Shown here piece after piece: positions 2,668-33,103 of a stretch of DNA of 33,371 nucleotides (positions are counted from its first letter, which is position 1; the number at the start of each line of letters is the position of its first letter). The position numbers were made by a program, and so were the translations under genes. Below the pieces are notes generated by a model. That model saw nothing but the letters and a program-made list of their open reading frames with translations. It searched no databases and was not told where the DNA came from. The stretch is from an uncultured Verrucomicrobiales bacterium (GTDB lineage: Bacteria > Verrucomicrobiota > Verrucomicrobiia > Limisphaerales > UBA1100). The stretch spans positions 1-33,371 of the forward strand of contig CAJWVY010000015.1 in NCBI GenBank assembly GCA_913048135.1. Reading direction: 5' to 3'.

Positions 2668-3699
2668 TTAGTGCGCCTTCTTGAAATGTTCGCGTAGGAT
2701 GTCGCGGCCGAAGTCGCCCTTGAAATCACGCCAGGTGGCGTGAATGTGGTTGGAGCCGTTCTGCGTGTTGGCATATTCGAGCAGAAAAGTGGGGCCCTGA
2801 ATGCGGTAGTAGTGCGGCTCAAAGGCCTTGGTGCTGCCGGCCCAGGAGAAGCGGATCTTGGCCAGTCCGGCTTTCTCGATCTTGGCCCAGTCTTCTTTGG
2901 CCACCACGGCGCGGTGGCGGTTGATGTATTCCTGAATGAGTTTGGTGAGCTGGGCCTGCTGGCCTTTGTTTAGGTCGTTGTAGCCGATGCCGGAATTTTC
3001 CATTGCCTCCACCGAAGGCAGGGCGGAGGTGAGGATGTCGCGTGGCGCTTTTTCAGCGATCACGGCCTGCTTGATCTGCGCGGCACTAAGGGAGGTGCGC
3101 AATTCGCGAGCGGCGAATTCCTCGGCTTCCAGGGCGATCAGTTTTCGGCCCGGGCCGAAATCCGCCACAGCCGGGTTACTGGCGAGGAACGACGGCACTA
3201 CGCTGAGCTTGCCGTTTACGATGGTGTAATTTAGCGACAAATGGTGGCCTTCGAAACGCCAGCCCCACGCGCCTTTGTTGCCGGGCTTGCCGAATACAAG
3301 AATGTGGTAGGCATCGCGGTCGCGCACAAAGCGACGATTCTTGCCCTCCAGCATGTACAGGATGTCCTCGAGGAACATGATGTTTTTCACCTTGGTATGG
3401 CCTGATTCGCTGAGCACAGTCTTGAGCAGGGCGTGGGTCAGCTCCCGTTGCTGGCCGGTCATGTGCTCGATCTGCAGCCCCTTGCGGCCGCCGCCCTTAA
3501 GCATTTCGGCGGGAATGAAATGCCAGTAAGTGCGTTCTTCGCCGTCAAATTTGAAAACGGCCTGCGCTTTCTGTTTGGCGTCCAGACTGGCGATCAAGGC
3601 GTCGGCAGCCTTGGCCATGTTGGCCGTCACATTTTCAGCTTGGGCGGGGATAACAAACGTCATGGCTGCGGCTGCAGCCAGAGAAAGTGCGAATTTCAT
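2668..3699 (-). CDS. Secreted DUF3500 family protein
   Basis: The 343-residue product starts with a clear signal peptide (MKFALSLAAAAAMTFVIPAQA) and is exported. The remainder fits the uncharacterised DUF3500 family: WHFIPAE (59-65), WGWRFEGHHLSLNYT near 145-159, VPSFLASNPA near 168-177 and, close to the C terminus, NHIHATWRDF followed by DFGRDIL. The conserved His clusters could hold a metal or act in catalysis, but no activity is established to my knowledge. It is transcribed away from ymdB, with a 77-base divergent gap carrying a promoter for each direction, and may be cotranscribed with the methyltransferase gene 45 bases downstream. Confidence 0.8.
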   Translation of the reverse strand: MKFALSLAAAAAMTFVIPAQAENVTANMAKAADALIASLDAKQKAQAVFKFDGEERTYWHFIPAEMLKGGGRKGLQIEHMTGQQRELTHALLKTVLSESGHTKVKNIMFLEDILYMLEGKNRRFVRDRDAYHILVFGKPGNKGAWGWRFEGHHLSLNYTIVNGKLSVVPSFLASNPAVADFGPGRKLIALEAEEFAARELRTSLSAAQIKQAVIAEKAPRDILTSALPSVEAMENSGIGYNDLNKGQQAQLTKLIQEYINRHRAVVAKEDWAKIEKAGLAKIRFSWAGSTKAFEPHYYRIQGPTFLLEYANTQNGSNHIHATWRDFKGDFGRDILREHFKKAH

Positions 3700-26531: not shown

Positions 26532-27104
26532 ATGCTTTTGTGGCGCGCAACGATTCCGAATGATTGGCTGCCCAAGGTGTTGGCCAATCTGGATGGGGTG
26601 TTGCTGGACCATTGTCATCTGGAGCGGAAGGCGGCGACCAGCGCGTTGAATCTCATTAAGTATCCGGAGCTGGCCGGGCACGCGCGGGAGCTGAACGCGA
26701 TTGCGCAGGAGGAACTCAGTCATTTTGAATTGTTGATGGCGGTCCTGGAGAAACGTGGCGTCACTTTTGGTTTATCGCAAAGTAGCCCGTGGATCAGCGG
26801 GCTGATGCGGTTCATTCGTAAGGGCAGACGGGAGCAGGTTATCGATCACTTGATCGCCGCTTCGTTGGTGGAAGGGCGCAGTTGCGAGAAATTCCAATTG
26901 TTAGCCGAGGCATTGAAGGAGAGGGAGCCGAAGCTGGCGGCGATGTATGCGGAGCTCGTGGAAAGTGAAGGCGGCCATTATTCGCATTTCTGGCTGATGG
27001 CTTGCCAGATCAATGATGCCGAGGCGCATGAGCGCTTGGATGCTTTTTTGAATTTGGATGCAGAACTAATTCGGCAATCGCATGATTTGCCAATTTTGCA
27101 CTAA
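26532..27104 (+). CDS. miaE: tRNA-(ms2io6A)-hydroxylase
   Basis: A 190-residue ferritin-like diiron monooxygenase that hydroxylates the isopentenyl side chain of ms2i6A37 in tRNA. The iron ligands are visible in two ExxH pairs and two single Glu: Glu31 (DHCHLERKAA), Glu61/His64 (EELSHF), Glu114 (EGRSCEKF) and Glu146/His149 (EGGHYSHF). The length and order fit MiaE. The gene has its own promoter and is convergent with the DUF971 gene with a four-base stop overlap (CTAA). It needs iron and oxygen, which fits its place next to a metal-uptake locus. Confidence 0.93.
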   Translation: MLLWRATIPNDWLPKVLANLDGVLLDHCHLERKAATSALNLIKYPELAGHARELNAIAQEELSHFELLMAVLEKRGVTFGLSQSSPWISGLMRFIRKGRREQVIDHLIAASLVEGRSCEKFQLLAEALKEREPKLAAMYAELVESEGGHYSHFWLMACQINDAEAHERLDAFLNLDAELIRQSHDLPILH

Positions 27105-27406
27105 GCGGTTTTCTCGCCGATGGAGCGCAGGTACTCGTGAGAATATAGGCCTGCATTGTGTCCGTCTTGCCAAAGTATTTGCACAGCATATCCGCCGACC
27201 GGTTGGAGACGTTTCACCTGAAAGGACGCCTCGGTTAATTGCGATTCGGGTCCTTTGGCTAAATTACCCATTATATCCATTTCGCCGGCGCATGAGGCGC
27301 AGGGGCATGCCCGTCGAACGGCTTCGAGTGAAATGAAGTGCTCAACGCCATCTTCCCACTTTAGCGCAAGTTCCGAACCGATGGGCTGTAAATCCAGCAA
27401 ACGCAT
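27101..27406 (-). CDS. DUF971 / gamma-butyrobetaine hydroxylase N-terminal-like protein
   Basis: A 101-residue single-domain protein with the DUF971 pattern: WEDGVEHFISLEAVRRACPC, then LQPVGGYAVQILWQDGHNAGLYS and EYL. Cys34, Cys36, Cys39 (CPCASC) and His83 (DGHNAG) align with the zinc site of the gamma-butyrobetaine hydroxylase N-terminal domain. Stand-alone DUF971 proteins have no firmly assigned role; fusions to Fe-S carrier ATPases of the ApbC/Mrp type suggest a link to Fe-S handling. It is transcribed divergently from the metal ABC operon across a 96-base gap, with its -35 element touching the shared palindrome, so it may be controlled by the same metal signal. Confidence 0.88.
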   Translation of the reverse strand: MRLLDLQPIGSELALKWEDGVEHFISLEAVRRACPCASCAGEMDIMGNLAKGPESQLTEASFQVKRLQPVGGYAVQILWQDGHNAGLYSHEYLRSIGEKTA

Positions 27407-27411
27407 ATGGT

Positions 27412-27440
27412 TTTATAACTAATATTGGCTTTGCTGTAAA
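27412..27440 (-). promoter_or_regulatory. Candidate leaderless promoter of the DUF971 gene
   Basis: On the minus strand TTTACA (27435-27440), a 17-base spacer and TATAAA (27412-27417) are followed by five bases and the ATG. The -35 overlaps the left end of the 26-bp palindrome by three bases. Confidence 0.55.
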
Positions 27441-27463
27441 AAGTTCGCCTAGACAAACTTTTT
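27438..27463. promoter_or_regulatory. 26-bp palindrome, candidate metalloregulator operator
   Basis: The sequence centred on CTAG (27449-27452) is a 26-base inverted repeat in which 11 of 13 base pairs match; its inner half-sites read AAGTTCGCCT and AGACAAACTT. It lies between two divergent promoter candidates, overlapping one -35 and ending three bases from the other. DtxR/MntR-type repressors bind palindromes of about this length. The DtxR-like domain encoded in the operon is the natural candidate ligand; MntR or Fur proteins encoded elsewhere are alternatives. Confidence 0.55.
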
Positions 27464-27466
27464 TAC

Positions 27467-27495
27467 TTGCGGCAATGTTTGTCATTGGGCAAATT
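27467..27495 (+). promoter_or_regulatory. Candidate promoter of the metal ABC operon, with a dyad in its spacer
   Basis: TTGCGG (27467-27472), a 17-base spacer and CAAATT (27490-27495) are followed by seven bases and the ATG at 27503. The spacer contains the perfect dyad CAATG-TTTGT-CATTG (27473-27487), a good position for a second repressor contact. An alternative reading, TTGGCT (27426) with TAGACA (27450), would put the start further upstream and place the larger palindrome over the -10. Confidence 0.4.
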
Positions 27496-27501
27496 CTGCC
27501 C
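27487..27501. promoter_or_regulatory. Short hairpin at the operon start codon
   Basis: GGGCA-AATTC-TGCCC has five-base perfect arms and ends one base before the ATG at 27503. If the mRNA includes it, it could hinder initiation; if the transcript is leaderless, it acts only as DNA. Confidence 0.25.
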
Positions 27502-27502
27502 T

Positions 27503-28477
27503 ATGCATTTGGAATTTATAAATCAGTGGTTCCGGAATGGGTTTGTCGCCGCGTATGTGGCAACGTTCTTCTTGGCCTGTAGTCAATCGGCTGAAGAAGC
27601 GGGCAAGGGCGACCCTATGGTTTCCGCTGGTGATAGTGGTAAACTGCAGGTGACCACTACGGTCAACATGGTTAGCGATCTCGTGCGCCAAGTGGGGGGT
27701 GATCATGTGGAGGTTACCGAAATCATGGGGCCCGGTGTGGATCCGCATCTATACAAGGCCAGCGCTAATGACGTCACTAAGCTTCAGAACGCTGAAATCA
27801 TATTTTATGTTGGCCTGTTGCTTGAAGGTAAAATGGAGGAAGTGCTGGGCAAGCTGAAGGACGGCGGTAAGCCGGTGTATGCCGTTACCCAGGATTTGCA
27901 AAAAACCAAGCTGCTCGATTCGGGCGAGTACGAGGATCACTTTGACCCGCACGTTTGGTTTGAAGTGCCGTTGTGGAAAGAGACCATTGATGTGGTGGTC
28001 GCCGGTCTGAGCAAAGCAGACCCGGACCACAAGGCCGATTACGAGGCTAACGGCAAGGCAGCCAAGGAAAAGATGGAGGATTTGCAAATGTGGGCCACGG
28101 AAAAGGTGAACGAATTGCCCGTTGAAAAACGTCTACTGGTAACCAGCCATGACGCGTACAACTACTTCGGCCGCGCGTATGGATTCAAGGTGGTGGGCCT
28201 GCAGGGTATTTCCACCGTCTCGGAAGCGGGCTTGGCTGACCGCACCAAGCTGGTTGACTTCATCAAGGAACAGAAGGTGAAATCCATTTTTGTGGAGACC
28301 ACGGTGAACCCGGATGCCATCAAGGCGATAGCCACGGATGCTGAGGTAACCATTGGTGGCGAATTGTTTTCCGATGCCATGGGCGAACTCGGCCAAATGG
28401 AAGGGGGGCTCGATCTCGGCACCTACGAGGGCATGATCAAGCACAACATCAGCACCATCGTCAATGCCCTCAGGTAA
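27503..28477 (+). CDS. ytgA: Metal-binding lipoprotein of a Zn/Mn/Fe ABC importer (TroA/YtgA type)
   Basis: Captures a divalent metal in the periplasm for the ABC transporter encoded downstream. ATG 27503 gives 324 residues with a lipoprotein signal (FLACSQ, lipid Cys26); an upstream in-frame TTG (27467) falls in the promoter region. The cluster A-I binding-protein fold shows four ligands: His82 (DPHLYK), His150 (DPHVWF), His216 (TSHDAYNYF) and Asp291 (LFSDAMG). This His-His-His-Asp set is that of TroA and chlamydial YtgA, and there is no His-rich loop as in many ZnuA proteins. The metal (Mn, Fe or Zn) cannot be decided from sequence. The OprB gene follows after a 75-base gap. Confidence 0.88.
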   Translation: MHLEFINQWFRNGFVAAYVATFFLACSQSAEEAGKGDPMVSAGDSGKLQVTTTVNMVSDLVRQVGGDHVEVTEIMGPGVDPHLYKASANDVTKLQNAEIIFYVGLLLEGKMEEVLGKLKDGGKPVYAVTQDLQKTKLLDSGEYEDHFDPHVWFEVPLWKETIDVVVAGLSKADPDHKADYEANGKAAKEKMEDLQMWATEKVNELPVEKRLLVTSHDAYNYFGRAYGFKVVGLQGISTVSEAGLADRTKLVDFIKEQKVKSIFVETTVNPDAIKAIATDAEVTIGGELFSDAMGELGQMEGGLDLGTYEGMIKHNISTIVNALR

Positions 28478-28552: not shown

Positions 28553-29815
28553 TTGAAAAGCAAACACATCATATTGGGCATGGCCTTGGCCGCCCAGGGA
28601 CTTATGGCGCAGGGTGATCCGGCAACACCGATCGTTTCTGCAGCTGAAGCAAATGAAATTACGGATGCGCCCGAATCCATTTGGGATAGTGGCGCGTTGT
28701 CCGGGAATTGGGGCGGTGCGCGTAGTGAGTTGTTGGAAAAGGGCTACGAGTTTGCCTTCGAGTACACCGCTGAAGGGTTTAGCAATGTGTCTGGAGGCTT
28801 AAAGACCGGTAGTGTGTATAACGGCCTTGGCTATGGTGCGGTGGATGTAAATGGTGAAACGGCTCTGGGCGTGGAAGGATTAAGTCTTCGCGTGAGTACC
28901 TTATGGACGCATGGCGTGAGCCCCGGTCAGTATGCCGGTGATGAACTGACTGTCAGCAATATAGATGCGTATGATGGGTTGCGTCTCTATGAGATGTTCG
29001 CCGAAAAGAGTTTCGGAAAGTTGAATGTGCGCATGGGTAATCTGCTGGCGGATGAGGAATTCGTTGGAACGGAATATGGCGGCGCGCTAATTAATGCTGC
29101 ATTTGGTCAGCCTACATTTTGGGCGGCCAACACTCTAAATACCGGCCCGGCCTTTAACGTGCCGGGTTTGGGTGTGCGTTTCAGGTATGACTTTGATGAG
29201 GCTCGGTACGCGCAATTCGGAATCTATGATGGCGATACTTTTGATGATGCCGGAGGAGATGCCACGATCAATCAGCACGGCACGCACTTCGAACTTGGTA
29301 ACGGCCAAGGATGGACGAGCCTGTACGAGGTGGGCTACAACGGCTTCAATGTGGATGATGGCGCGGAGCTTCCAGGTTGGTACCGTTTGGGCGCCTGGTA
29401 TCACTCCAGTGAATTCGACACCAACGCCGGCGGCAAGAAGGAAGGTAATGGTGGTATTTATGGCGCCTTGGACAAGATGCTCACCCGCGAAGGTCTCGGC
29501 GCCTTTGCGCGGCTGGGAATCAGTGAGCGCGACCGCAGCCGGTTCCATTGGGTGTTGGACACCGGGTTTAACTACACGGGACTCATCCCCGGGCGGGATG
29601 AAGATGTGACCGCACTGGGTTTTGTTTACGGCAAACACAGCAGTGACATTACTACTAACAAATCTCATGAAGCAGTGGTGGAACTGACCCATCAGTTTCA
29701 GGTGAGCCCCTCGGTGTATCTACAGCCCGATATCCAATGGATTAAACGACCCAGTGGTGATACGAGTATAGATGACGCGCTGGTGATTGGCCTACGTGCC
29801 GGATTCACATTTTAA
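28553..29815 (+). CDS. OprB-family outer-membrane porin in the metal operon
   Basis: A 420-residue beta-barrel protein with a signal peptide (MKSKHIILGMALAAQGLMAQ) and the OprB pattern, beginning WDSGALSGNWGGARSEL and EFAFEYTAEGFSNVSGG and ending with the outer-membrane signature GLRAGFTF. The start is TTG 28553, chosen for the signal peptide and for the Shine-Dalgarno AGAGAGG nine bases upstream. OprB porins are usually linked to carbohydrate uptake. Here the gene lies between the binding-protein and ATPase genes of a metal importer and abuts the ATPase gene directly, so it probably admits the metal or a metal complex across the outer membrane. Confidence 0.85.
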   Translation: MKSKHIILGMALAAQGLMAQGDPATPIVSAAEANEITDAPESIWDSGALSGNWGGARSELLEKGYEFAFEYTAEGFSNVSGGLKTGSVYNGLGYGAVDVNGETALGVEGLSLRVSTLWTHGVSPGQYAGDELTVSNIDAYDGLRLYEMFAEKSFGKLNVRMGNLLADEEFVGTEYGGALINAAFGQPTFWAANTLNTGPAFNVPGLGVRFRYDFDEARYAQFGIYDGDTFDDAGGDATINQHGTHFELGNGQGWTSLYEVGYNGFNVDDGAELPGWYRLGAWYHSSEFDTNAGGKKEGNGGIYGALDKMLTREGLGAFARLGISERDRSRFHWVLDTGFNYTGLIPGRDEDVTALGFVYGKHSSDITTNKSHEAVVELTHQFQVSPSVYLQPDIQWIKRPSGDTSIDDALVIGLRAGFTF

Positions 29816-30601
29816 ATGAGCACACACAACGCAAAACCGGAAACACCTGTACCACTTGAGATTCATGATCTCACGGTTGCCTATCATAAGCGGCCGGTGT
29901 TGTGGGGGGTGGATGTTGAGGTTCCGGCTGGGCAACTTGTCGGGGTTATTGGCCCCAACGGCGCAGGAAAATCCACCTTGATCAAGGCGGCCATGGGACT
30001 GCTGCCGGTGAGCAGCGGCTGGGTCAAGGTCTTTGGCCAGCCGGTAAAGGATAATCTCCGCCGTGTGGGCTATGTGCCCCAGCGTGAATCGGTAGATTGG
30101 GATTTTCCCGTGAGCGTCATGGATGTTGTGCTTATGGGGCGCTACGGGCATCTCGGCCTGTTTAAGCGGCCTAGGAAGGAAGACCGCGAGGTTGCCCGAG
30201 AGTGCCTTGAAAAGGTGAAGATGTTGCCTTACGCCGACCGACAGATTTCCAACCTCTCCGGCGGCCAACAGCAACGGGTGTTCCTAGCGCGAGCGCTGGC
30301 ACAGGAGAGTGATCTGTATTTCATGGATGAACCGTTCGCCGGCGTGGATGCCGCCACCGAGGCGGCCATTGTGACGATTCTCCAAGAGCTCAAAGATCAG
30401 GGCAAAACACTCCTCGTAGTACATCATGATCTACCCACGGCCAAAACCTACTTCGACAGCCTGTTGTTGCTTAACATGCGGGTGGTAGCATTTGGCCCCA
30501 CCGAAGAGGTGTTTAACTACGACCTCCTGCAGAGTACCTACGGGGGGCGCCTGACCATCCTCAGTGAAGTGGCCGACGCCGTGGGCGCTAAGGCCCGTTG
30601 A
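29816..30601 (+). CDS. ytgB: ATPase of the metal ABC importer
   Basis: A 261-residue ABC ATPase of the Mn/Zn/Fe-chelate family. It has Walker A GPNGAGKST, the Q-loop region VGYVPQRESVDWDFPVSVMD typical of this transporter class, the signature LSGGQQQR, Walker B DLYFMDEPFAGVD and the H-loop VVHHDL. It begins at the base after the porin stop and ends four bases before the permease-fusion gene, so it is clearly part of the operon. It energises import by the two permeases downstream. Confidence 0.94.
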   Translation: MSTHNAKPETPVPLEIHDLTVAYHKRPVLWGVDVEVPAGQLVGVIGPNGAGKSTLIKAAMGLLPVSSGWVKVFGQPVKDNLRRVGYVPQRESVDWDFPVSVMDVVLMGRYGHLGLFKRPRKEDREVARECLEKVKMLPYADRQISNLSGGQQQRVFLARALAQESDLYFMDEPFAGVDAATEAAIVTILQELKDQGKTLLVVHHDLPTAKTYFDSLLLLNMRVVAFGPTEEVFNYDLLQSTYGGRLTILSEVADAVGAKAR

Positions 30602-30605
30602 CCCC

Positions 30606-32063
30606 ATGCTGCGTCCCATCCTCATTGTGCTGCTTTATCTGTGTGCGCCGGAGTTGGTGTGGGCCGAGCGCATTGGAGACATGGGGGAAACTACAGTCTG
30701 GGATCAAGCACGGCGCTTTTTCAGCCTAAAAGATCCCGCTGTGCGCTACGCATTGATGGGCTCCATTTTGTTAGGGATCAGTTGCGGGTTACTTGGCAGT
30801 TTTATCGTTGTCCGGAAGATGGCGCTATTTGGCGACACACTGTCTCATGCAGTGTTGCCAGGGGTGGCGCTGGGGTTCATGTGGAACATGAGCAAGGATC
30901 CGTTGGCGATTTTTATAGGTGCCACCTTGGCCGGATTGATCGGAGGCGCGCTGGTGACCTTGATCGTTCAAACGACCCGACTGAAGGAAGACACAGCTTT
31001 GGGGCTGGTGTTGGCCTCTTTTTTTGCCGTCGGCATTTGCCTGCTCACGCGCATTCAAAAGATTTCTACCGGTAATAAGGGCGGTCTTGATGATTTTCTT
31101 TTTGGGCAGGCGGCTGCTATGGGGAAGAATGATATCACTCTGATGCTGGGGGTTACGCTGTTGGTCATCGTGGCCATCACTTTTTTTTACAAGGAACTTT
31201 TGGTCGTCAGTTTCGACAAGACCTTTGCCGGTTCGGTGGGGTTGCCGGTGGCCGTCATACACTACGCTCTGATGATGCTGTTGGCGTTCAGTGTGGTGAT
31301 CGCGTTACAGGCGGTAGGCGTGGTGCTGGTATCTGCCATGCTGATCACGCCGGCCGCCGCGGCGTATTTGCTGACCGATCGGATGCATGTAATGCTGCTA
31401 TTGGCTTCCATCTTCGGCGTTGCGGCGGGAGCGACCGGAGCTTTCTTATCTTTTCTTGGCAACAACCTGCCGACCGGCCCATTGATGGTGGTAGGGGCGT
31501 CGTTGGTGTTCGTGTTGGCGTTCCTTTTCGGTCCGCGGCACGGGGTAATATCGCGTTGGTGGCGGCAATCCTCACGATCGGCTCAAGTGCAACGGGAGAA
31601 TACCCTGAAAGCCCTGTACCATGTGCTTGAGGCTCGTTCTTTTGTAGGTGAAGGAGTGTCTTTACGCGAGCTTGCCGAGCGCCGCCGCGAGACAATTGAG
31701 GATGTGCGAGGTCAAGCACAGCAGCTGAAAAAACATGACTTAGCCACCCTGCATGAAGATGGCGAGACCGTACATCTCACGCCCGATGGCTGGCAGCGGG
31801 CGTGTGAAATTGTCCGCAACCACCGGTTGTGGGAATTGTATCTCACCAACGAGGCCCGCATTGCCCCGGATCATGTGCACGATGATGCAGAGATTATCGA
31901 GCACGTGTTAGGCGAGGAAACCGTGCGTCAACTCGAGCGCACCTTAAACCATGCCAAAGAGGATCCGCATGGCCGACAGATTCCTGGGCTGCAGGATTTG
32001 CAATTGGGCGGCCGCAGCTTTGGCGGGCCGGAGGTCACTACCGGATATGGCAAGCCGTTATGA
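30606..32063 (+). CDS. ytgC: Metal ABC permease fused to a DtxR-like metalloregulator (YtgCR type)
   Basis: The 485-residue protein has an N-terminal hydrophobic, signal-like segment, an ABC-3 family permease domain (about 45-310, with GDTLSHAVLPGVALGF at 76-91) and a soluble C-terminal domain (about 330-465). The latter has a winged helix (VSLRELAERRRETIEDVRGQ) and a DtxR/MntR metal-binding and dimerisation segment: His406 and Glu410 (NHRLWE), His425, Glu429, Glu432 and His433 (VHDDAEIIEHVL), then DPHGRQIP. The Glu-x-x-Glu-His order is like MntR; Glu replaces the Cys of DtxR. The N-terminal ligands of MntR (Asp8, Glu11) are not evident. In Chlamydia the matching YtgCR is cleaved to free an iron-dependent repressor. 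ATG 30606 is chosen over an in-frame ATG at 30564 inside the ATPase gene. Confidence 0.9.
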   Translation: MLRPILIVLLYLCAPELVWAERIGDMGETTVWDQARRFFSLKDPAVRYALMGSILLGISCGLLGSFIVVRKMALFGDTLSHAVLPGVALGFMWNMSKDPLAIFIGATLAGLIGGALVTLIVQTTRLKEDTALGLVLASFFAVGICLLTRIQKISTGNKGGLDDFLFGQAAAMGKNDITLMLGVTLLVIVAITFFYKELLVVSFDKTFAGSVGLPVAVIHYALMMLLAFSVVIALQAVGVVLVSAMLITPAAAAYLLTDRMHVMLLLASIFGVAAGATGAFLSFLGNNLPTGPLMVVGASLVFVLAFLFGPRHGVISRWWRQSSRSAQVQRENTLKALYHVLEARSFVGEGVSLRELAERRRETIEDVRGQAQQLKKHDLATLHEDGETVHLTPDGWQRACEIVRNHRLWELYLTNEARIAPDHVHDDAEIIEHVLGEETVRQLERTLNHAKEDPHGRQIPGLQDLQLGGRSFGGPEVTTGYGKPL

Positions 32064-33103
32064 ATCCCGAACCCTTCATCCCTGCTTTTAACTGGCAGCA
32101 GCATGTGATCGATCCGTGGAATGCGGAGTTACCGATAACACTGTGGATTGTGTTGATGGGCTTCTTTGTTACCGCTTCCTGCGGATTGGTCGGCAATTAC
32201 CTCATCCTACGCAGGATGGCGCTGGTGGGTGATGCTATCAGTCACAGTGTATTAGCCGGTATTGCTGGGGTGATTGTCTTTACCGGTCATCTGCAAGTAA
32301 CAGGTTTATTTATTGGCGCACTAATTTCGGGTATCTTGACCACTGTACTGATTGAGGTGATTCATCGCTATTCACGTGTGAAACAAGACGCGGCTATTGG
32401 TGTGACCTTCACCAGCCTTTTCGCCCTAGGCGTTATCCTGATCAGTCTGCAGGCAGGCGATGTGCATATTGATGAAGAGTGTGTATTATACGGTGAAATT
32501 GTTTTTGTGCCGCTGGACAAAACGAAGTTATCTATAGCCCCGGCTTTAGCGGATGTGTTGAGAAAAATGCCGGGAGCTGAGTTGTACGTCGTTGGTAATC
32601 AGTTGATCATGGCTACTGATGTCATTCGCATGGGGTTCGTTACCTTACTAGTGGCTTTGTTGATTTGGGTCTTTTATAAAGAACTGCTGGTCAGTTCATT
32701 TGACCCTGGGTTGGCGTTTTCGTTGGGGATCAACAGGAACGTCGTCCATTACGGGCTAATGAGCCTACTCTCAGTTGTGGTGGTGAGTGCATTTGAATCT
32801 GTGGGTGCGATTCTAGTGGTGGCGATGTTGATTTTGCCTGGAGCTACCGCGCATTTATTATCGCCCCGTCTTCCGGTAATCATGGGGCTCACTGTATTAC
32901 ACGCCGCCCTTAGCACCATTTTGGGTTTTCACATGGCTAAATGGCTGGATTGCTCAATCGCCGGTGCCTTGGTGGTGGCCGGCATGGGCCTGTTTGTGTT
33001 GGCCTGGATCTTTGGAATCCACGACGGGTTGCTCGGTAAATGGTTGCGCCGTCGGCAGGTGCAAGAGCCGGATTCGAATGAATTGGTTGAACCAGTTGCT
33101 TGA
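32060..33103 (+). CDS. ytgD: Second metal ABC permease
   Basis: A 347-residue ABC-3 family permease with about eight or nine membrane segments and the conserved cytoplasmic-loop motif GDAISHSVLAG. It has the hydrophilic insert around DEECVLYGEIVFVPLDKTKL typical of the longer TroC/TroD and YtgD permeases. It carries no regulator domain and ends in a short polar tail. Its ATG overlaps the stop of the permease-DtxR gene by four bases (ATGA). The two permeases presumably form a heterodimer. It is the last gene of the operon, and tRNA-Ile2 begins 45 bases later. Confidence 0.92.
   Translation: MNPEPFIPAFNWQQHVIDPWNAELPITLWIVLMGFFVTASCGLVGNYLILRRMALVGDAISHSVLAGIAGVIVFTGHLQVTGLFIGALISGILTTVLIEVIHRYSRVKQDAAIGVTFTSLFALGVILISLQAGDVHIDEECVLYGEIVFVPLDKTKLSIAPALADVLRKMPGAELYVVGNQLIMATDVIRMGFVTLLVALLIWVFYKELLVSSFDPGLAFSLGINRNVVHYGLMSLLSVVVVSAFESVGAILVVAMLILPGATAHLLSPRLPVIMGLTVLHAALSTILGFHMAKWLDCSIAGALVVAGMGLFVLAWIFGIHDGLLGKWLRRRQVQEPDSNELVEPVA

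Follow-up and report, generated by a model that had tools for sequence, protein, structure and literature searches.

A conserved palindrome at a metal-import operon of uncultured Verrucomicrobiota is probably an operator for a standalone repressor of the MntR type, with the permease-fused DtxR domain an unlikely main reader

In Bacillus subtilis, MntR binds metal through 6 ligands (Asp8, Glu11, His77, Glu99, Glu102, and His103; PMC6860424). In an MntR–DNA structure, the dimer covers 18 bp made up of two inverted repeats of 9 bp each, with Ser37 among the residues near base pairs 4–7; T stands at −7 in 19 of 20 half-sites and an A:T pair at 6/−6 in 14 of 20 (PMC11275975). In Chlamydia, YtgR, the only known iron-dependent regulator of that genus, is made as part of a permease fusion, YtgC-YtgR, from which it is cleaved off; once released, it acts as a repressor of the operon that encodes it (PMC5599777, PMC6504234). 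Such permease–repressor fusions have been reported in 11 phyla, and the chlamydial mechanism has been suggested to be general (PMC5599777, a review). Our literature search for permease–DtxR fusions outside Chlamydia returned nothing specific. Operators of the DtxR/IdeR type are palindromic sites near promoters.

The locus considered here lies in a window of 33,371 nucleotides, i.e., the whole stretch of DNA that was analyzed, and comprises a metal-import operon, a divergent DUF971 gene and the control region between them:

27101..27406, minus strand, divergent DUF971 (GBBH-like_N) gene (PF06155)
27412..27417, minus strand, candidate DUF971 −10 TATAAA, 17 nt from its −35 and 5 nt before the ATG; kept in G013 and G018
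27435..27440, minus strand, candidate DUF971 −35 TTTACA, sharing 3 bases with the palindrome; kept in G013 and G018
27438..27463, no strand, 26-bp inverted repeat, supported by the sequence, a repeat search and conservation in the family
27441–27460, 20-bp core, proposed MntR operator, AAGTTCGCCT AGACAAACTT
27467..27472, plus strand, candidate operon −35 TTGCGG, at a distance of 3 nt from the palindrome that is fixed in 11 genomes
27473..27480, plus strand, possible third half-site within the −35/−10 spacer, CAATGTTT in the window
27490..27495, plus strand, candidate operon −10 CAAATT, 17 nt from the −35
27503..28477, plus strand, ZnuA/MntC-type metal-binding lipoprotein (PF01297; NCBIfam Zn/Mn models below cut-off)
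28553..29815, plus strand, OprB-type porin within the operon (PF04966)
29816..30601, plus strand, ABC ATPase, best match of Mn/Fe type (PF00005; NF011630 and MntA models below cut-off)
30564..32063, plus strand, permease–DtxR fusion (PF00950 and PF02742; permease at about residues 59–322, DtxR domain from 31557)
32060..33103, plus strand, second permease (PF00950)

As listed, the fusion open reading frame overlaps the ATPase gene by 38 bases (30564–30601), and many homologues align only from about residue 18, so its true start probably lies further downstream.

The repeat search returned the 26-bp palindrome at 27438–27463 (AAAAAGTTCGCCT and AGACAAACTTTTT) with 11 of 13 pairs matching, the dyad between 27450 and 27451 and the central CTAG at 27449–27452, in agreement with the first-pass annotation, and the coordinates likewise bear out its statement that the repeat overlaps the DUF971 −35 (by 3 bases) and ends three bases before the operon −35. 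An 11-of-13 palindrome of this size arose in 0.5% of first-order Markov trials of the 96-bp region. The whole 33-kb window holds 3 such palindromes against 0.4 expected; the other 2, at 3139 and 27634 (the latter within the znuA-like gene), are probably due to chance. The half-sites of the window read GTTCGCC on the left and GTTTGTC on the right, each on its own strand, and aligning the AAGTTYGCC half-sites with the published MntR pattern puts T at −7 and −6 in both (PMC11275975).

Of 20 family genomes searched with the fusion protein, 16 have the operon (znuA-like gene, OprB, ATPase, fusion, and second permease). Conservation of the palindrome in relatives, the check named in the first-pass annotation, was found upstream of the operon in no fewer than 13 genomes of the family, mostly with 0–2 mismatches to the family consensus, with degenerate versions in G003, G011, and G010; the more diverged arm in G018 and G013 is on the opposite side to that of the window. 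Pair counting across the 13 family sites favors the dyad register (80% paired versus 31%–59% when the register is slid), and column shuffles add little to this. A genome-wide pattern search allowing up to 3 mismatches gave a background equal to the control apart from the operon site, and the palindrome is apparently the only close match in its own genome. Two matches were rejected as further operators: one on contig C134 of that genome, which lies inside a carboxylase coding sequence, and G006:C417, which overlaps the 3′ end of a gene.

The claimed TTGCGG-17-CAAATT promoter of the operon held up in comparison: the order of operator, 3 nt, TTG-type −35, 17 nt, and −10 is unchanged in 11 family genomes, in which the −35 of the relatives reads TTGCRN, TTGTGT or TTGAAG and the −10 is CARRTT-like in most. 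The support for the promoters is comparative, resting on conserved spacing, because a simple consensus scan of the control region detected no sigma-70 sites; judged on sequence alone, both promoters would be weak. CAAACTT stands at the position of the possible third half-site in most relatives. The ATG of the operon, at 27503, follows the −10 by 7 nt, and this distance is 6 or 7 nt in the ten genomes that could be read that far (the G010 entry ends before the start codon). Given this short distance and the fixed spacing of operator, −35, and −10, the mRNA of the metal operon is likely to be leaderless. The palindrome is genuine and conserved, a putative switch immediately ahead of the import-operon promoter.

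The TTTACA-17-TATAAA promoter proposed for DUF971 is present in the window and retained in its two nearest relatives (G013 and G018), but is not clearly recognizable in the sister genus. Moreover, MiaE takes the place of DUF971 as the upstream neighbor in 3 genomes that retain the palindrome (G015, G016, and G017), which indicates that the palindrome belongs to the metal operon. Thus, the joint control of both genes envisaged at first is not general; co-control of DUF971 by MntR is possible in the closest relatives, whose palindrome extends into the DUF971 −35.

Beyond the family, a diverged form of the operator, AAGTTAGCCnnGGCTAACTT, occupies the same place across the order. Other families of the order, including Persicirhabdus (L245) and Akkermansiaceae (L247), have the core AAGTTAGYCnnGRCTAACTT there, often beside a TTGAC −35. 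The ends of the order-level core TTAGCCnnGGCTAA, TTAG and CTAA, are also those of DtxR/IdeR operators.

Two proteins with a DtxR C-terminal domain are encoded in the genome of the window, namely, the fusion and a standalone protein of 148 aa (G000:C71:5507-5953). The latter scores 151 bits against the NCBIfam MntR model NF003025 (cut-off 138), is nearest to Bacillus MntR structures (E = 5e-31) and, in the motifs SAEDYLERI, DRHEVL, and DIEGIEHHLS, has all six ligands of the published list (PMC6860424). The fusion is present in 52 of 167 genomes of the order that are at least 90% complete, and 48 of these 52 also have a standalone MntR match. We further examined 80 named fusion loci from Verrucomicrobiota, Planctomycetota, Bacteroidota, and other groups for a separate DtxR/MntR gene. 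Many Verrucomicrobiota and Planctomycetota have this gene in divergent orientation to the operon, and in Bacteroidota it immediately precedes the operon on the same strand. The mntR gene, unlinked to the operon in the genome of the window, is its immediate neighbor in many relatives. In G008, mntR (G008:C9:189340-189754; L105, L184) is matched by overlapping pieces in two different frames, being either frameshifted or misassembled, and the palindrome is intact.

Five operator classes pair with five classes of standalone recognition helix over 46 loci from Verrucomicrobiota, Planctomycetota, and Bacteroidota, the operator classes having been assigned by eye and with prior knowledge of the standalone sequences:

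operator GTTYGCC, standalone helix QPSVTSM or KPSVTSM
operator TTAGCC, standalone helix QASVTxM (one exception, G030)
operator TTTTGACTAATCAAAA, standalone helix (P/A)GT(A/V)T
operator TTTAGAnnAnTCTAAA, standalone helix (P/A)AS(V/A/I)x
operator TGTTTTA, standalone helix SRSTVSN

When helix identity was regressed on C-domain identity, loci of the same operator class showed an excess of 0.080 for the standalone helix (reached in 0 of 5,000 permutations) and of 0.022 for the fused one (p = 0.052), in a test that ignores phylogeny; the co-variation may stem partly from shared descent, as both classes follow phylogeny. Within the TTAGCC class (18 genomes), the Q-A-S-V-T core of the standalone helix is 94%–100% conserved, and the fused helix averages 53% versus 84% for its own C-domain. 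Counterexamples are G030 and G056, which retain the TTAGCC operator, the one standalone regulator recovered there being divergent. In the family of the window, Pro replaces the Ala of QASVT at a position that aligns with Ser37 of B. subtilis MntR; the operators of the TTAGCC class and of this family differ at position 5.

Taken together, the MntR model score and six ligands, the T−7/T−6 pattern, the co-variation of helix and operator, the frequent presence of a standalone MntR alongside the fusion, the features of the fused domain and the case of G001 (the last two described below) lead us to conclude that the palindrome is probably the operator for the standalone MntR-type repressor whose gene lies at another place in the genome (G000:C71), acting on a Mn/Fe/Zn import operon, and that the fused domain is probably not its main reader. 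Of the initial interpretation as a site for a metal-responsive repressor, the DtxR-family operator at a metal operon is retained. The DtxR domain encoded in the operon, put forward as the simplest binder, is not: the helix of the separate MntR tracks the operator, and that of the fused domain is variable, acidic and tracks it far more weakly (p approximately 0.05).

The alternative that keeps the fused domain as reader holds that it is cleaved off the permease like YtgR of Chlamydia, dimerizes when metal is bound and uses the palindrome to repress the operon that encodes it. As in YtgABCD/YtgR, a permease of the ABC importer, here of the ABC-3 type, carries a C-terminal DtxR domain (the same fusion as YtgC-YtgR; PMC5599777, PMC6504234), which is encoded within the operon itself and predicted to have the fold of a DtxR regulator, with a winged HTH and dimerization helices (pLDDT 83; best match, the Mn repressor DR2539, E = 1.5e-9). 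However, although 29 aligned fused domains all have His89, Glu115, and His116 and almost all have Glu112, our alignment places an invariant Asn and an invariant Lys where MntR has Asp8 and Glu11, so that 2 of the 6 MntR ligands appear to be absent. The recognition helix is the least conserved part of this highly conserved domain, and the mean charges of helix and wing are −1.2 and −1.9, versus +1.9 and +1.5 in the standalone regulators (23 genomes of the order). Two features of a YtgR-type repressor are thus missing from the fused domain: its DNA-reading surface is acidic and variable in place of a DNA-suited helix and wing conserved along with the operator, and it is not the sole DtxR-type regulator, a standalone MntR being present here and in nearly all genomes with the fusion.

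Furthermore, G001 keeps the fusion without the palindrome: only a TTGACT −35 and an operator remnant are left upstream of its znuA, a search for MntR in this genome (91% complete) found none even at E = 10, and the mntR-flanking genes of sister genera are here separated from each other and have different neighbors. As G001 is a single genome at 91% completeness, this combination of retained fusion, undetected mntR and decayed operator is no more than supportive of reading by MntR. The missing mntR of G015 was rejected as support for the fused domain, the contig ending inside the neighboring gene of the mntR locus. We therefore consider both conventional binding of the fused domain to the operator and a YtgR-like release unlikely. 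According to the comparative evidence, the domain seems to have kept its metal-binding part and largely lost its DNA-reading surface, and since the conserved part is the metal-binding and dimerization domain, a role as a metal sensor on the transporter appears more likely than one as a transcriptional repressor.

Under control by the standalone MntR, a dimer loaded with Mn2+ or another divalent metal would occupy the 20-bp core from about −62 to −43, centered about 52 bp before the leaderless start, with the palindrome and its flanks ending 3 bp upstream of the −35. The bound regulator would keep the polymerase off the −35 and block the metal-import operon and, in the genus of the window, could also cover the −35 of DUF971; at low metal, the operon would be transcribed as a leaderless mRNA, and the fused domain may sense metal on the transporter. 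We infer MntR binding, the identity of the metal and repression from these comparisons. A site upstream of the −35, and not over it, is not the most typical position for a repressor. Activation, by MntR or by another regulator at the palindrome, would suit this position directly upstream of the −35 (center at about −52, fixed 3-nt gap in 11 genomes), and B. subtilis MntR does activate efflux genes, with one site overlapping the −35 (PMC11275975). Nevertheless, we rate it as improbable, as metal-loaded MntR is expected to shut off, not turn on, an uptake operon, and the second operator-like site nearer the −10 in some loci of the order (G058, L215, and L202) fits repression. Binding of the palindrome by a Fur-family regulator (Zur, Fur or Mur) is highly improbable: although the genome encodes three Fur-family proteins and the operon a ZnuA/MntC-type binding protein, the AAGTTYGCC half-site has the MntR T−7/T−6 pattern and resembles no Fur or Zur box to our knowledge, and the operator classes track DtxR-family helices.

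The proposed MntR control resembles that of the B. subtilis mntA and mntH operators in its two-domain regulator with six metal ligands, in inverted half-sites with T at −7/−6 and in a Mn-type ABC importer as the putative target. It differs in the half-site core (GTTYGCC here and TTAGCC in the wider order), in an operator just upstream of the −35 where those of B. subtilis overlap the promoter, in the likely leaderless mRNA and in the unlinked mntR. Unlike DtxR/IdeR, the standalone regulator is a two-domain MntR without an SH3 domain. The operator itself is ordinary, and every feature of an MntR operator that could be examined is found in it, i.e., an 18- to 20-bp dyad, T at −7, A:T at 6, and a conserved position at the promoter of an uptake operon; it adds a candidate MntR site with a footprint-supported, likely leaderless promoter in uncultured Verrucomicrobiota.

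In at least 3 phyla, genomes with the fused domain usually also encode a complete standalone regulator, and within the order examined the domain seems to have lost a canonical DNA-reading surface, which makes gating of a transporter by a former repressor a testable idea. In the groups examined, the evidence points against a general mechanism of the Chlamydia type. We tentatively suggest, as a proposition that could go either way, that the fused domain is a regulator-derived module which has given up DNA reading for the sensing of cytosolic metal and the gating of the importer (trans-inhibition), with transcription left to a separate MntR/DtxR, that Verrucomicrobiota, Planctomycetota, and Bacteroidota widely share this arrangement, and that chlamydial YtgR is a special case among the fusions of 11 phyla.

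In this family and some others, the metal ABC operon includes an OprB-type porin, through which the metal or a chelate probably crosses the outer membrane. In 2 Planctomycetota loci (L252 and L254), a third DtxR-like match lies just past the second permease, which may carry, or precede, a DtxR-like domain. Other proteins of Verrucomicrobiota (L124:6982-8010 as well as L121, L122, L123, L126, L138, and L145), approximately 340–400 aa long, begin with what appears to be a membrane helix, followed by a DtxR C-terminal domain and an additional segment at the C terminus, and an MntR-like gene is located near several of them.
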